A stretch of DNA of 64,000 bases from positions 1,984,001-2,048,000 of the forward strand of contig NZ_CP046244.1 of the NCBI RefSeq assembly GCF_009735625.1, given 5' to 3'. A program made the translations under genes and the position numbers. The notes below the pieces were generated by a model. It made no database searches, was not told the DNA's origin, and saw nothing but the letters and a program-made list of their open reading frames with translations. Positions 19,545-60,393 of this stretch are shown here, in pieces (positions within the stretch are counted from its first letter, which is position 1; the number at the start of each line of letters is the position of its first letter). Source of the DNA: Moorella glycerini (GTDB taxonomy: Bacteria; Bacillota; DSM-521; Neomoorellales; Neomoorellaceae).

Positions 19545-19689
19545 ACTCTGGTAGATGAATTAGTCTCCGGGAGAATTAAAGCTGGTACTTTATATGCTCG
19601 AAAAACGCCTGCGGGAACAAGGGCAGGTAGAACTGGCGGAAGAGATAATACAAAAATACAGGCCAGCCGTGGAAGGACTGGCCCGCTAA
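19545..19689 (+). pseudogene. Remnant of the small gene found intact at 22464-22628
   Basis: The bases align with 22470-22628 over the whole length (shared blocks GAAACTCTGGTA / GAAACCCTGGTA, CTGGCGGAAGAGAT and ATACAGGCC), but a short internal deletion and frameshifts break the frame. It lies right after the PIN toxin gene. The presence of two copies, each beside a toxin gene, suggests the family is an antitoxin-like partner; that is inference. Confidence 0.6.
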
Positions 19690-19703
19690 ACTTCAAGGAC
19701 GGA

Positions 19704-20369
19704 TTACAAGGATTTATTACGCCAGAAACTGGCTACAATTTCAGCCAGCGGGCCTTCATCGATCATTTTGCGCTGGTTAGATCTAGGCAATAAATGAACG
19801 TAGTTCATTGTAGTATTAATCGAGGCGTGGTTTAGAAGCTCTTTGATCTCAACAAGATTGGCGCCATTTTTCCACAGATTGGTAGCAAAACTATGCCGCA
19901 TGCAGTGAGCGGTAATATTTTTCTGTATACCTGCCTCAATACATAAAGACTTTAAAAGCTTGTTTATCCACGATTTGCTGAGTTTTTTACCCTTAGGGGT
20001 CAGGAACAGGAAAGAAGCTGCATCAGGGTCTGCCGGAATCCTGCTTCTTTCGCCCTTTATATATTCAGTAATGCTATTTACTACCCAGGGTAGCAAGGGT
20101 AATAGATACTCTTTCTTCGTCTTAATGGACGGGATCAGCAATGCTTCCAGGTTGTTAGGATTCTCTATATACGGAAGGTTGATAAGTTCGCTTACCCTGA
20201 TTCCGGTGCCGTACAGAGTGGTCACAATTACCTGTGCGAGCTGTGGAAATCCGCAATCACTTGTAGAAGCTATAATTTTTTTAAATTTTTCCTGGGTTAG
20301 AGTATCTCTTTTAGCGGGTCCGGGCGCTGACATTTTTATTTCTTCAAGAGGATTGCTCATACCCTCCAT
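19704..20369 (-). CDS. Tyrosine recombinase, catalytic part; true 5' end unclear
   Basis: A 221-residue frame from the ATG at 20369 with all catalytic elements of phage-type integrases: Arg in YGTGIRVSELINLP, HCMRHSFATNL with His-x-x-Arg, and the nucleophile Tyr in INTTMNYVHLLPRS. The in-frame sequence upstream to about 20500 still reads as the core-binding domain (IRDFLYTIPENQ, HIISHLRNFFRVL), but no ATG, GTG or TTG precedes it before a stop near 20610. The gene has therefore lost its start, or the short form lacks the N-terminal DNA-binding domain. It is probably not functional as an integrase. Confidence 0.8.
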   Translation of the reverse strand: MEGMSNPLEEIKMSAPGPAKRDTLTQEKFKKIIASTSDCGFPQLAQVIVTTLYGTGIRVSELINLPYIENPNNLEALLIPSIKTKKEYLLPLLPWVVNSITEYIKGERSRIPADPDAASFLFLTPKGKKLSKSWINKLLKSLCIEAGIQKNITAHCMRHSFATNLWKNGANLVEIKELLNHASINTTMNYVHLLPRSNQRKMIDEGPLAEIVASFWRNKSL

Positions 20370-21007
20370 AGGGCCCCCGGTACTGCAAAGAACGCGAAAA
20401 AAGTTACGCAGGTGGCTTATTATATGACATTTGTTGCTTGTTTGATTTTCTGGTATAGTGTACAGGAAATCTCTAATAAACTGGGAATCAATCGGGGCCA
20501 GCCGTTTCCTGATCGAATACGCGGCTGCATAGCCGCCTTCGGGGCTTCGCCCGGTGAGCCTGAGCGTGTATGACAGGCTCCTGGCTCTTGCGATTCTAAT
20601 AATTGACTTAGGCTACCTGAGCGACCTCCTCCACTATGGAATCGCTGATTTGAAGCTCTCCTTTCTCCCGTCCGGCCGGCTGGGCGTAAGCCGCGGGAAC
20701 TGGGGAAAGGCCCGCCAGGCCCACCTCTCCGCGTTTGCCGCCGGCGAGGTCCACCGCGCACCGTCATAGAGAGAATAGCCTGTGGCCGTGTTCTGGCGTA
20801 ATTTGGTCTGAGTGTAAAGGAAACTCTATCCGTTAATCTCTAAAAGGTCTCTGAACCGTACACCAGGATAGTTAAAAGGAGCGGGGGAGGTGCTGCTACC
20901 GCCGTTGGTATGAACTATCACCACCAGCAGGGCAGGGTTGCGCTCCAACCACTCCTGGAGGATACAGATTAGTTGAATTTTATAAATAGGAGTAAGAGGG
21001 ATGGTTT
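20370..21007. other. Degenerate region between recombinase and DUF6884 gene
   Basis: On the minus strand, 20370-20500 continues the recombinase core-binding domain in frame without a start codon. From about 20610 to 20760 another minus-strand frame reads like coding DNA (VGLAGLSPVPAAYAQPAG, ELQISDSIVEEVAQVA) but has no start. A third frame at about 20835-20975 reads LQEWLERNPALLVVIVHTNG. These are short remnants I cannot assign. Only the last 25 bases (a weak GGAGTAAGAGGG) belong to the next gene. Confidence 0.4.
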
Positions 21008-22396
21008 ATGTCAAAAGTTGCTTTGATTTCATGTACCAGTAGGAAAAAAGCATATAAATGTCAAGCAAGAGAATTGTATTGGGAAAGCCCGCGGTTTCGA
21101 CTGGCATATGCTTTTGCAAAGCTTGTTGCAGACAAGATATTTATTCTCTCAGCAAAGTATGGTTTAGTACCGGAAGATAGGGTTATTGAACCTTATAACG
21201 AAACATTAAAGGAGAAAAGTGCCCAAGAGCGTCGTGCATGGGGATACAAAGCGGTAAATGAATTGTGCAAGGTTACTGATGTGGAGCACGATGAGTTTAT
21301 TGTTTTGGCAGGTGAAGTTTATCATGAAAACTTACTACCCCATCTGAGCCATTTCTGGCTTCCGCTTAAAGGTAGAAGTCAAGGCGAATGGATTCCGGAG
21401 TTGGAGAGGCTCGTTAAGCTTGAAAAAGAAACAGATAAAGTATTAGTTCTTCACATGCTCTTTAATGGTCTGCCACGATTGGATTGGACAATGATAGACC
21501 AGCTTCCCTATCAAAATGGCATATATATCATGTTTGAAAAGGGCGAAAGCTATCATAGCATGGATAGGATAGTTCGCGTAGGTACCCATCAGGGTCAAGA
21601 CCGTTTGAAGAAAAGGTTAAGAGACCACTTTGTGAAGGAGGACGCTGATGGCAGTATTTTCCGCAAAAACATCGGCCGTGCTTTTTTGAATATGACTTCG
21701 GATCCATATTTACAAGTGTGGGAAATTGATATGCACAAATCTGGGGAAAAAAGAGACTACGGGCACTTAATTGATGAAAGGCTGGAAGCTGGACTTGAGG
21801 CAAAGATTAGCCAGTATTTAAGAAGTAGCATCACTTTTGTTTGTTTTCCAGTTGATGAAGAAGAGGAACGGCTGCGATTGGAGGAAGGTATTATTGCAAC
21901 GCTTAACAGACATCCGTCATTTGGCCCGAGTAACAATTGGCTAGGCCTGAATAGCCCTGTACCGGAAATAGCCGGCAGTGGCCTTTGGAATAAACAGGGC
22001 CTGGATGGTCAACCGTTATCAGATAATGAAGTAGAGCGGATTAAATGGCTTGCCAGATTTGGTAATGATAGCTACAGGAACAATGCGGTTCATAGGGCAC
22101 GAGTACAAAGAGCGGTGAATCTAGTTATAACGACTGGAAAACCTTATGATTCGGAACGGAAAACAGCTGATGATGTAAGAAATTACATAGATAAATTATT
22201 GCGGGAAGCAAAGAGGCGAGGCGAAGACTATATTGATTTGGTTTCAGGGGATATTCATAAGCAGTTGGGTATGAAAAACAGGATGCCCCAGGTGTGCAGA
22301 ATTATGTATGAGAAAATGCAGGCAGGAGATAAGGTTATACATACTACCCCCAGTGGTAAGAGTTCGACGATAAAAATCAGGTATTATCTAAAATAG
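21008..22396 (+). CDS. DUF6884 + GIY-YIG-like + winged-helix-like fusion protein
   Basis: A 462-residue soluble protein with three parts. Residues 1-125 (VALISCTSRKKAYKCQARELY, then FILSAKYGLVPEDRVIEPY) match DUF6884, a YaaA-related domain. Residues about 155-275 (NGIYIMFEKGE, IVRVGTHQGQDRLKKRLRDHF) look like a GIY-YIG endonuclease fold: a GIY strand followed by VG(T) and a conserved Arg. Residues 395-462 (YIDLVSGDIHKQLG, RMPQVCRIMYEKM, PSGKSSTIKIRYYL) resemble a short winged-helix-like module seen at the ends of nuclease or restriction proteins; that assignment is from memory. It sits alone among mobile-element debris, next to toxin-antitoxin remnants, and is intact. A defence role is plausible but unproven. 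Confidence 0.75.
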   Translation: MSKVALISCTSRKKAYKCQARELYWESPRFRLAYAFAKLVADKIFILSAKYGLVPEDRVIEPYNETLKEKSAQERRAWGYKAVNELCKVTDVEHDEFIVLAGEVYHENLLPHLSHFWLPLKGRSQGEWIPELERLVKLEKETDKVLVLHMLFNGLPRLDWTMIDQLPYQNGIYIMFEKGESYHSMDRIVRVGTHQGQDRLKKRLRDHFVKEDADGSIFRKNIGRAFLNMTSDPYLQVWEIDMHKSGEKRDYGHLIDERLEAGLEAKISQYLRSSITFVCFPVDEEEERLRLEEGIIATLNRHPSFGPSNNWLGLNSPVPEIAGSGLWNKQGLDGQPLSDNEVERIKWLARFGNDSYRNNAVHRARVQRAVNLVITTGKPYDSERKTADDVRNYIDKLLREAKRRGEDYIDLVSGDIHKQLGMKNRMPQVCRIMYEKMQAGDKVIHTTPSGKSSTIKIRYYLK

Positions 22397-22463
22397 AGGT
22401 TGAGTGTTTAAGGAGTTTAATGGCTAGCCAAATATGCTATAATTTAAATCAGAGGTGGTAAAT

Positions 22464-22628
22464 ATGTCCGTAGAAACCCTGGTAAATGAATTAGCCAGCC
22501 TGCCGCCGGGAGAATTAAAACTGGTACTTGAGATGCTGGAAAAACGTCTGCTGGCCCAAAGACAGGTAGCACTGGCGGAAGAGATTATAGAAAGATACAG
22601 GCCGGCCCTGGAGGAACTGGCTCGATGA
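22464..22628 (+). CDS. Small antitoxin-like protein upstream of a Doc gene
   Basis: A 54-residue protein starting at ATG 22464 behind AGAGGTGG: MSVETLVNELASLPPGELK, then a helical, charged end. The LPPGELKLVLEMLEKRL helix and the coupling (4-base gap) to a Doc-type toxin gene suggest an antitoxin, but no family is certain. A decayed copy lies at 19545-19689 next to a PIN toxin. Confidence 0.6.
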   Translation: MSVETLVNELASLPPGELKLVLEMLEKRLLAQRQVALAEEIIERYRPALEELAR

Positions 22629-22631
22629 AAT

Positions 22632-22843
22632 ATGGAGCTGGATACTATAATGGAGATCCACCGCCGGGTTATTGCAGCCACCGGTGGGGAATACAGTATC
22701 CGGGATAAAAATTTACTGGAAAGTGCCTTCATGGCGCCGCTGGCCACCTTCGGCGGGAAGGATTTATATCCGGACATTCTCACCAAGGTGGCCGCTTTAT
22801 TATATTATATGGTATAACCAATAACCATCCCTTCATTGATGGC
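22632..22843 (+). pseudogene. Doc/Fic-type (death-on-curing) toxin, truncated and frameshifted
   Basis: The N-terminal 60 residues are typical of Doc family toxins: IMEIHRRVIAATGGEY and RDKNLLESAFMAPLATFGG. After VAALLYYMV a stop appears. In the next frame the bases at 22820-22843 read NNHPFIDG, the start of the Fic motif HPFxDGNKR, and then the sequence breaks into a recombinase fragment. The Fic core is incomplete, so no AMP/phosphate transfer is possible. Confidence 0.8.
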
Positions 22844-54149: not shown

Positions 54150-55462
54150 ATAGCTTTTTTGCTTGCCAGAGACAAGCGCTATAATTACTGCAGACGTAGG
54201 TTTTGCAGGACTTTCATATACAACTTCGATGGGCGGCCGCCGTCAAAGCAGCGCCGGCGGCGCCCATCCCGGGCCTGCGGTTATATGCGCTGCCTAGGAG
54301 CCGGCGCTGAGGTCATTCTCGTTGACGCGGCTAACGGCAGTAAAGTAAAAAGCAAACGGGGGTATTTCCTTTGCGGCGAGCAGCAGCAATTTCCCTCATC
54401 GCTGTTATCATAATCGCCGGCGCCCTTGCGGCGGCCCGTTCCCGGACGGGGAGCCCGCCACAGCAGCAAAACGTCCAGCAGCAGGAACCCGGAGTGCAAC
54501 AGCCCAACGTCCAGCAGCAAGAGTTGGGGGTACCGCAGCAACCCGGCCCCGGCACGAATGAGCCGGGAGTCCAGCAGCCCGGGCCGGGTACCGGCGCTCA
54601 AGCCCTGCCGGCGGTCGTAAAGCCCGGTGACTTTTTCCCATTATACCCAGGCAGCAGGTGGCAGTACCTGGGCGAGGGGAACGAATACGCCACCTTTAAA
54701 CGCGAGGTCCTGTACGCCAGGGGCGACAGAGCCCAGATCAGGGAGGACAACGGCGGCACCGTGAGCGCGGCCGTGTTCAAGATCACGGAAGACGCGGTGA
54801 CGCGCGTCTTTTTTCAGGGAGAAGCCTACGAAGGGACAAACTTCCTGGACCATGAGCCCGGAGAAAACGTGGTAATTTTAAAGGCGCCTCTGGCAGCAGG
54901 CACCAGGTGGGAAACCCCCAACGGCCCCAGGGAGATCGTCGACGTCAACGCCACCGTAGACACGCCGGCGGGTAAATTTGAGAACTGCCTCAAGGTGAAG
55001 CTGGAAGGCATCGGTTCCACTATATTCGAGTACTACAATGAAGGGGTAGGGATGGTGAAGAGGGAATTTATTTCCGGAAGCACCCGGGTCACCTCCACCC
55101 TTGAAAGCTATGAAATAACCCCGGCCGGATAGAGTTGCAGCCAGGTAAACCACAACCGCTACCGCCAGCGATAGGATAGTGTTAGGAAGCACGTCCCCGC
55201 CGCCACCCGGGAAAGGCTGCCGGCGATAGCCGCTACCAGCGCAGGCCATTTTATTGCCGGCATGTTTCCATATCGAAGGTCTGACTGGGGGAGAAAGATC
55301 CGGACGGCCGGTAGGCAAGGAGAGCCGGCCAGTTATACGTGCTGCGGCTATGGTCGAGCGGTGGCTGGCAGCCCTGGGGGCAGGCAGGTAGTTTCCCGGA
55401 CAGGAAGTCTTCTAGAGGCTAATGCTGGTAGTATTTGGACCGGGGTGCTTGGTAGCATGATC
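53969..55462 (+). repeat. Segmental duplication, copy A
   Basis: About 1.49 kb that is near-identical to 59227-60722. It includes the DUF433 end, the secreted Pro/Gln-rich protein gene and 325 bases after it. Differences are scattered single bases and a cluster near 55190-55260. At 55133-55457 I see no gene. Confidence 0.9.
54371..55132 (+). CDS. Secreted Pro/Gln-rich protein, copy A
   Basis: A 253-residue exported protein that starts with TTG at 54371. An N-terminal hydrophobic signal (AISLIAVIIIAGALAAA) is followed by a low-complexity stalk, residues 28-80, of repeats like VQQPNVQQQELG and GPGTNEPGVQQ. A beta-rich domain of about 170 residues follows (FPLYPGSRWQYLGEGNEYA, TFKREVLYARGDRAQI, YYNEGVGMVKREF). 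This globular part occurs in cell-surface proteins of Firmicutes, without known function. The stalk presumably spans the cell wall. Copy B (59632-60393) is nearly identical, with an Ile/Thr change. Confidence 0.75.
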   Translation: MRRAAAISLIAVIIIAGALAAARSRTGSPPQQQNVQQQEPGVQQPNVQQQELGVPQQPGPGTNEPGVQQPGPGTGAQALPAVVKPGDFFPLYPGSRWQYLGEGNEYATFKREVLYARGDRAQIREDNGGTVSAAVFKITEDAVTRVFFQGEAYEGTNFLDHEPGENVVILKAPLAAGTRWETPNGPREIVDVNATVDTPAGKFENCLKVKLEGIGSTIFEYYNEGVGMVKREFISGSTRVTSTLESYEITPAG

Positions 55463-59631: not shown

Positions 59632-60393
59632 TTGCGGCGAGCAGCAGCAATTTCCCTCATCGCTGTTATCATAATCGCCGGCGCCCTTGCGGCGGCCCGT
59701 TCCCGGACGGGGAGCCCGCCACAGCAGCAAAACGTCCAGCAGCAGGAACCCGGAGTGCAACAGCCCAACGTCCAGCAGCAAGAGTTGGGGGTACCGCAGC
59801 AACCCGGCCCCGGCACGAATGAGCCGGGAGTCCAGCAGCCCGGGCCGGGTACCGGCGCTCAAGCCCTGCCGGCGGTCGTAAAGCCCGGTGACTTTTTCCC
59901 ATTATACCCAGGCAGCAGGTGGCAGTACCTGGGCGAGGGGAACGAATACGCCACCTTTAAACGCGAGGTCCTGTACGCCAGGGGCGACAGAGCCCAGATC
60001 AGGGAGGACAACGGCGGCACCGTGAGCGCGGCCGTGTTCAAGATCACGGAAGACGCGGTGACGCGCGTCTTTTTTCAGGGAGAAGCCTACGAAGGGACAA
60101 ACTTCCTGGACCATGAGCCCGGAGAAAACGTGGTAATTTTAAAGGCGCCTCTGGCAGCAGGCACCAGGTGGGAAACCCCCAACGGCCCCAGGGAGATCGT
60201 CGACGTCAACGCCACCGTAGACACGCCGGCGGGTAAATTTGAGAACTGCCTCAAGGTGAAGCTGGAAGGCACCGGTTCCACCATATTCGAGTACTACAAT
60301 GAAGGGGTAGGGATGGTGAAGAGGGAATTTATTTCCGGAAGCACCCGGGTCACCTCCACCCTGGAAAGCTATGAAATAACCCCGGCCGGATAG
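59632..60393 (+). CDS. Secreted Pro/Gln-rich protein, copy B
   Basis: A 253-residue protein, same start (TTG) and layout as copy A: a signal segment, a Gln/Pro-rich stalk and a beta-rich domain ending with ESYEITPAG. The only amino-acid difference I see is Thr for Ile in KLEGTGSTIFEY. The near identity shows the duplication is recent or kept uniform by gene conversion. No cell-wall sorting motif is present. Confidence 0.75.
   Translation: MRRAAAISLIAVIIIAGALAAARSRTGSPPQQQNVQQQEPGVQQPNVQQQELGVPQQPGPGTNEPGVQQPGPGTGAQALPAVVKPGDFFPLYPGSRWQYLGEGNEYATFKREVLYARGDRAQIREDNGGTVSAAVFKITEDAVTRVFFQGEAYEGTNFLDHEPGENVVILKAPLAAGTRWETPNGPREIVDVNATVDTPAGKFENCLKVKLEGTGSTIFEYYNEGVGMVKREFISGSTRVTSTLESYEITPAG

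Follow-up and report, generated by a model that had tools for sequence, protein, structure and literature searches.

PDC-M57, a candidate phage-defence system, in a probable one-gene form in Moorella glycerini

A gene at positions 21008-22396 on the plus strand of a 64,000-nucleotide stretch of the Moorella glycerini genome (contig NZ_CP046244.1; hereafter the window) is probably a one-gene version of PDC-M57, a catalogued candidate phage-defence system. We read it so because its relatives, which span many bacteria and archaea, are often located in islands of genes against viruses. The 462-residue product fuses the M57A (DUF6884/YaaA-like) and M57B (GIY-YIG nuclease) components of this system to a C-terminal winged-helix domain. 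Beyond what was catalogued, we describe a single-gene form with three domains, an active site of divergent GIY/RVG type, and tails and partners that can be exchanged, and we propose a mechanism that can be tested.

Results

An intact gene of foreign composition

The reading frame begins with ATG, runs uninterrupted through 462 codons and ends with TAG, and the AlphaFold2 model of the whole protein, computed with 31 aligned sequences, had a mean pLDDT of 90.1. The position and intactness given in an earlier note on this DNA were confirmed, but the C-terminal end quoted there is one residue short of the actual one, ...PSGKSSTIKIRYYLK. The G+C content of the gene is 41.7% vs 53.8% for the window, and its GC3 is 38.7 vs ~84 in the downstream genes; both values lie far below the surroundings, so the gene looks foreign or acquired. 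The mobile-element debris and toxin-antitoxin remains that the earlier note described around it are indeed there. Upstream lie a transposase gene with a DUF6431 protein, a MazE/PIN pair and a tyrosine recombinase remnant (19704-20369, minus strand; PF00589, 9.6e-30), which at 221 residues is below the length of the full enzyme. Downstream follow directly a small antitoxin-like ORF (22455-22628, plus strand), the same DNA also following the gene in the congener G013, and a truncated Fic/DOC fragment of 61 residues (22632-22817, plus strand; PF02661, 1.2e-07).

Several repeats were seen in the same region. Two copies of a 124-nt direct repeat derived from antitoxin-like sequence (19567-19690 and 22506-22629, 83% identical) flank the recombinase remnant and the M57 gene on either side, and a 22-nt inverted pair (19716-19737 / 20781-20802) brackets the remnant. 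A segment of ~100 bp upstream of the gene (20759-20863) has copies at 85-95% identity elsewhere in the genome and in congeners, and may mark where a small mobile element ends. Elsewhere in the window, two ORFs of 253 residues each, ~5.3 kb apart (54371-55132 and 59632-60393), are identical over their first 55 residues and are probably a recent duplication.

Both halves match PDC-M57

PDC-M57 is a multi-gene phage-defence candidate of PADLOC-DB v2.0.0 (2023), and both of its components matched the window protein nearly full-length within the same ORF: PDC-M57A (PDLC04712) at residues 1-134 (profile 1-134 of 138, E 1.9e-41) and PDC-M57B (PDLC04713) at residues 144-347 (profile 4-207 of 211, E 5e-72). 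The A component is present, and the B component is present and physically linked to it, as in a member of the system. The system is thus not undescribed, as had been suggested from the sequence, both halves having been catalogued already. The term single-gene suits the fused window copy but not the many relatives that are two-gene pairs: the window copy is one fused gene with an added winged-helix tail, and its relatives show fused and two-gene forms. Our literature search gave no paper naming PDC-M57 or DUF7662 and just two naming DUF6884, and we therefore rejected the idea that this is an already-tested defence system; activity or phage protection by any M57 member was likewise not found in the papers searched.

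A DUF6884 domain with the YaaA fold

The N-terminal domain (residues 4-131; 21017-21400, plus strand) matched the DUF6884 family PF21818 with E 6.8e-35 and a score of 120.6 bits, well over the cut-off, which is 30. Both motifs of the family are there: CxxxK (C9-K13; 21032-21046, plus strand), a putative active site with C9 and K13 invariant in 31/31 sequences, and LSAxxG in the form LSAKYG (residues 47-52; 21146-21163, plus strand), with S48 kept in 30/31 and G52 in 26/31. The Pfam authors name the same two motifs and propose an active site in DUF6884 (PMC11701544).

Fold assignments here and below come from VIA comparison; with Foldseek by itself, neither the full model nor the middle domain had a match below E 0.001. 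The N-terminal domain superimposed best on E. coli YaaA (5caj; Z 9.8, 130 residues, 3.0 A), followed by the archaeal AF0587 (2q07; Z 8.9). Although the folds are alike, the YaaA/DUF328 profile PF03883 scored 14.9 bits, under its cut-off of 29.6. The domain thus has its CxxxK and LSAxxG motifs and its YaaA fold in common with DUF6884/YfjM and YaaA; descriptions of the latter show them either on their own or combined with different domains, whereas the window copy is joined to a GIY-YIG domain.

A GIY-YIG nuclease domain with an altered second motif

The middle domain (residues 144-347; 21437-22048, plus strand) was modelled alone with a pLDDT of 95.3, and its top match was the N-terminal domain of UvrC (Z 5.8, 85/89 residues, rmsd 2.6 A; Z 5.2 from the full-length model). 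Among the matches listed, all chains at Z >= 2 were of the GIY-YIG type, namely UvrC domains and a plant glutaredoxin N-domain. These Z values are moderate, so the assignment leans on the motif alignment too, and since the Pfam GIY-YIG family PF01541 gave no match to the window protein at E<=1, it rests on fold and residues.

The active site was examined in two alignments, one of 31 fused sequences and one of the window domain with 24 separate M57B proteins. Residues G171, Y173, R187, V189, R190, G192, L200, R203, H207, E292 and W311 were invariant in both. They include the G and Y of the NGIY motif (residues 170-173; 21515-21526, plus strand), Arg203, which corresponds to the catalytic Arg of GIY-YIG enzymes (21614-21616, plus strand), and Glu292, the counterpart of their metal-binding Glu (21881-21883, plus strand). 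An hhalign comparison with UvrC of related genomes, covering a short stretch of 37 columns at 35% identity (E 0.0013, probability 18%), paired GVY with GIY, YVG with R190-V-G192 (21575-21583, plus strand) and the catalytic Arg with R203. Glu292 lies outside this stretch, and its equivalence was drawn from the pattern L-E-x-x-L/I-I common with UvrC, not from a tool alignment. At the place of the YIG tyrosine stands Arg190, invariant throughout the aligned relatives; the domain can thus belong to the GIY-YIG fold only as a divergent subgroup, and with the second Tyr changed to Arg its catalysis could be altered. The window protein has the fold and the catalytic Arg and Glu in common with the UvrC nuclease domain, but it lacks the other parts of UvrC, carries the Tyr-to-Arg change and, unlike UvrC, separates the Arg from the Glu by a long, mostly helical insert.

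A winged-helix tail behind a flexible linker

A flexible linker (residues 355-382; 22070-22153, plus strand), the sole segment with pLDDT below 50 and the one with the highest dN/dS of the gene, leads to the C-terminal winged-helix domain (residues 387-462; 22166-22393, plus strand), modelled as a block of pLDDT 79-95. Its fold matches at Z 5-6 include Z-alpha, CtsR and SSV1 F-112; a Pfam search of the tail by itself gave zero matches. A PDB sequence search found no relatives of the window protein, and 6-phosphogluconate dehydrogenase, the sole weak match (E 0.053), was rejected as a relative. A free-standing 88-residue protein that resembles the tail was seen in another genome (L092:7368-7634), ~2.4 kb from a tail-less M57 gene. 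All together, the three parts foreseen in the earlier note were recovered: a YaaA-like first domain, by profile and fold; a middle region that folds as GIY-YIG and holds the Arg and Glu that were to be searched for; and a small winged-helix-like module at the C-terminus.

Fused genes, gene pairs and exchangeable partners

We surveyed the architecture of 80 loci (L050-L129). Fused forms comprised 23 with a C-terminal tail, 13 with two domains and 8 with other extensions; the others were A>B pairs (25), B>A pairs (2), B only (7) and fragments (2). The A>B genes mostly overlap by 1-14 bp, and the 'pairs' in L061, L107, L113 and L116 look like broken genes. The reverse order B>A was seen at L109:10004-11093 and L127:7268-8363, with overlaps of 71 and 35 bp. 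That the two domains are repeatedly reunited is the strongest sign that DUF6884 and M57B work together.

An accessory domain, DUF7662, is C-terminal in L076 and L095 and N-terminal in L075. One five-part protein (L074:8822-11332) consists of an RNase_T exonuclease, DUF7662, DUF6884, M57B and a PcrA/UvrD tudor domain. Divergent DUF6884 proteins adjoin M57B at L110:10668-11465, here with DUF7662, and at L108:1751-2443; they are possible alternative partner classes for M57B.

A patchy, conserved and decaying gene

Eight genomes of our phylum sample carried copies 76-89% identical to the window gene. Seven were full-length orthologues (76-84%), and one, from the same genus, was 5'-truncated (89%). 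M57B was present in 10/299 genomes of the phylum, a patchy distribution, and named relatives occur in Clostridia, Bacilli, archaea, Bacteroidota, Chloroflexota and Proteobacteria. Haloferax volcanii, one of the control genomes, also had an M57B match. The high identity across distant families suggests horizontal transfer. The matches listed from collections of plasmids and phages covered the DUF6884 half alone, at under 60% identity. Comparison with four full-length orthologues gave dN/dS of 0.14-0.16, the linker being least constrained: the gene is under purifying selection.

Defence genes are usually lost often. Of 11 genomes from the genus, G013 has the 5'-truncated copy, and G237 retains only both ends of the gene (window 21289-22189 is missing); the DNA downstream of this G237 locus shows synteny with the window. 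The remaining genomes of these 11 had no recognisable copy, flanking repeats aside.

Defence genes near several relatives

Several relatives lie among defence genes, be they of BREX, type I restriction-modification, Druantia, a Thoeris-like TIR or further candidate systems. BrxHI, PglZ, BrxA and PDC-S11 are immediately upstream of M57 in L053; in L061, a GajB-like UvrD helicase and DruE lie upstream and a TIR protein of short-Argonaute type downstream; DruE is also near M57 in L073, and HsdR with a ThsB-type TIR in L054. In L097 the M57AB pair stands between hsdS and hsdR and overlaps hsdS by ~10 bp. On a viral contig (L129), an M57 copy follows HK97-gp10-like and tail-tube-like genes of a phage structural module. 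The earlier note had proposed examining such neighbourhoods in other genomes; several copies do sit in defence islands and the relatives are not mostly in housekeeping contexts, although many, notably the two-gene Bacteroidota copies, stand alone among ordinary genes with no obvious defence neighbour. Serine recombinases are near some relatives. In several Firmicutes (L051, L053, L054), a zinc-ribbon/DUF6438-like gene and a PRiA4_ORF3 gene come after M57, within ~60 and 625 bp.

A type I methyltransferase cluster was found in 7/79 loci vs ~0.4 expected, roughly estimated as ~18-fold above chance; the expectation derives from the PF02384 frequency in 149 Bacillota genomes (146 matches), applied to 1.04 Mb of flanks, and so uses a Bacillota-only rate and an assumed genome of ~2.7 Mb. 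L054 and L058 are one kind of locus, and a recount with 5 loci gave a Poisson chance of ~5e-5. The PADLOC MTase_I model pointed weakly in the same direction (5/145 near genes vs 2/140 far genes). Near and far neighbours differed modestly in PADLOC matches overall, a comparison that is weakly informative because it is based on the 25 families listed.

Discussion

On a slight balance of probability, the single-polypeptide version of PDC-M57 is most likely a modification- or lesion-dependent DNA endonuclease. We infer that DNA is its target: the DUF6884 pocket (CxxxK/LSAxxG) would sample a flipped base, modified or damaged, that marks foreign DNA, and the GIY-YIG domain (Arg203, Glu292, and Arg190 for the second Tyr) would then cut or nick that DNA and so restrict phage. 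The exchangeable winged-helix tail may bind DNA, holding the protein there or setting its specificity. The defence role claimed in the earlier note stands as the best reading, some relatives lying inside defence islands, but defence itself is unproven.

Recognition of modified bases is proposed by analogy, with three precedents in view. DpdC, a YaaA-superfamily protein of the 7-deazaguanine DNA modification system, acts within DNA on a base that is modified, and changes it (PMC12839542). It shares the superfamily with the M57A part, to which its profile matched weakly (E 1.1e-4); the match covers positions 48-107 of 312 (~60) and not the whole-length profile, and no dpd genes were seen beside the window gene. 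The closest tested precedent, CMoRE/PD-T4-3, is a type IV enzyme that combines GIY-YIG with a sensor of modification and restricts phages of the T-even group (PMC12923530). Like the window protein, it is a single protein in which a GIY-YIG domain nearest to UvrC is joined to a second DNA-reading domain, but it is of a different family: compared by description, its sensor has no known fold, whereas the other domain of the window protein is DUF6884. The CMoRE motifs are GIYxY-YIG and those of the window protein NGIYIM and RVG, with Met at position 175 and the third Tyr missing. Since GIYxY is absent, the window protein is not a CMoRE member and could at most work in a CMoRE-like way; the PD-T4-3 model was absent among the matches listed for it in the PADLOC-DB search.

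The third precedent, B. subtilis YfjM, is a DUF6884 protein found among binders of DNA with abasic or ribonucleotide lesions and predicted to flip bases (PMC11701544), and it points equally to repair, the main rival to the defence reading. In a repair endonuclease, DUF6884 would find lesions, abasic or ribonucleotide, beside which GIY-YIG would incise, as in UvrC or Cho, the defence neighbours being incidental. That UvrC is the nearest solved GIY-YIG domain, and that L074 fuses the pair to an RNase_T exonuclease, DUF7662 and a UvrD tudor domain, would fit such a function. We nevertheless consider it rather unlikely: the family is patchy (10/299) and the gene foreign in composition, unlike a core repair gene, it has decayed in two congeners, and its link to defence genes is frequent. 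The second-best fold match of the N-terminal domain, AF0587 (2q07), which we take to be an archaeal relative of tRNA-modifying enzymes, could instead suggest an abortive-infection RNase, in which a YaaA/ArcS-like domain would read an RNA, whether tRNA or some other, that GIY-YIG would cleave upon infection; the winged-helix and DUF7662 tails and the links to DNA-directed systems suit DNA better, and we give this idea little credence.

It is similarly very doubtful that the protein is an accessory subunit of type I restriction-modification or BREX, modulating or backing up a host system. The L097 pair between hsdS and hsdR and the L053 copy adjoining BREX genes would agree with this, but most copies are unlinked to restriction-modification, and a search of the window genome for PF02384 methyltransferases gave none at 1e-20. 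Recombinase and transposase remnants adjoin the window gene, as serine recombinases do some relatives, yet a GIY-YIG homing endonuclease or mobile-element helper is extremely improbable, given a free-standing ORF, no intron or intein seen on reading its surroundings, the conserved pairing with DUF6884 and the defence neighbours.

Within the preferred reading of a base-directed endonuclease, a bolder form, which we hold decidedly unlikely, would make the protein a new class of restriction: the Cys9/Lys13 pocket of DUF6884 would itself attack or excise a phage base and pass the site to the Tyr-to-Arg GIY-YIG domain, with the tails swapping specificity. If true, this would be the first function for the DUF6884-nuclease pair. 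DUF6884/YaaA-type domains are widespread and their function is unsettled, and a single protein in which such a domain is tied to a nuclease makes it possible to test directly what such a domain reads. If the protein cuts DNA with unusual bases, it would add a family of restriction enzymes across bacteria and archaea, and may find use as a tool in the detection of bases that are modified or damaged.
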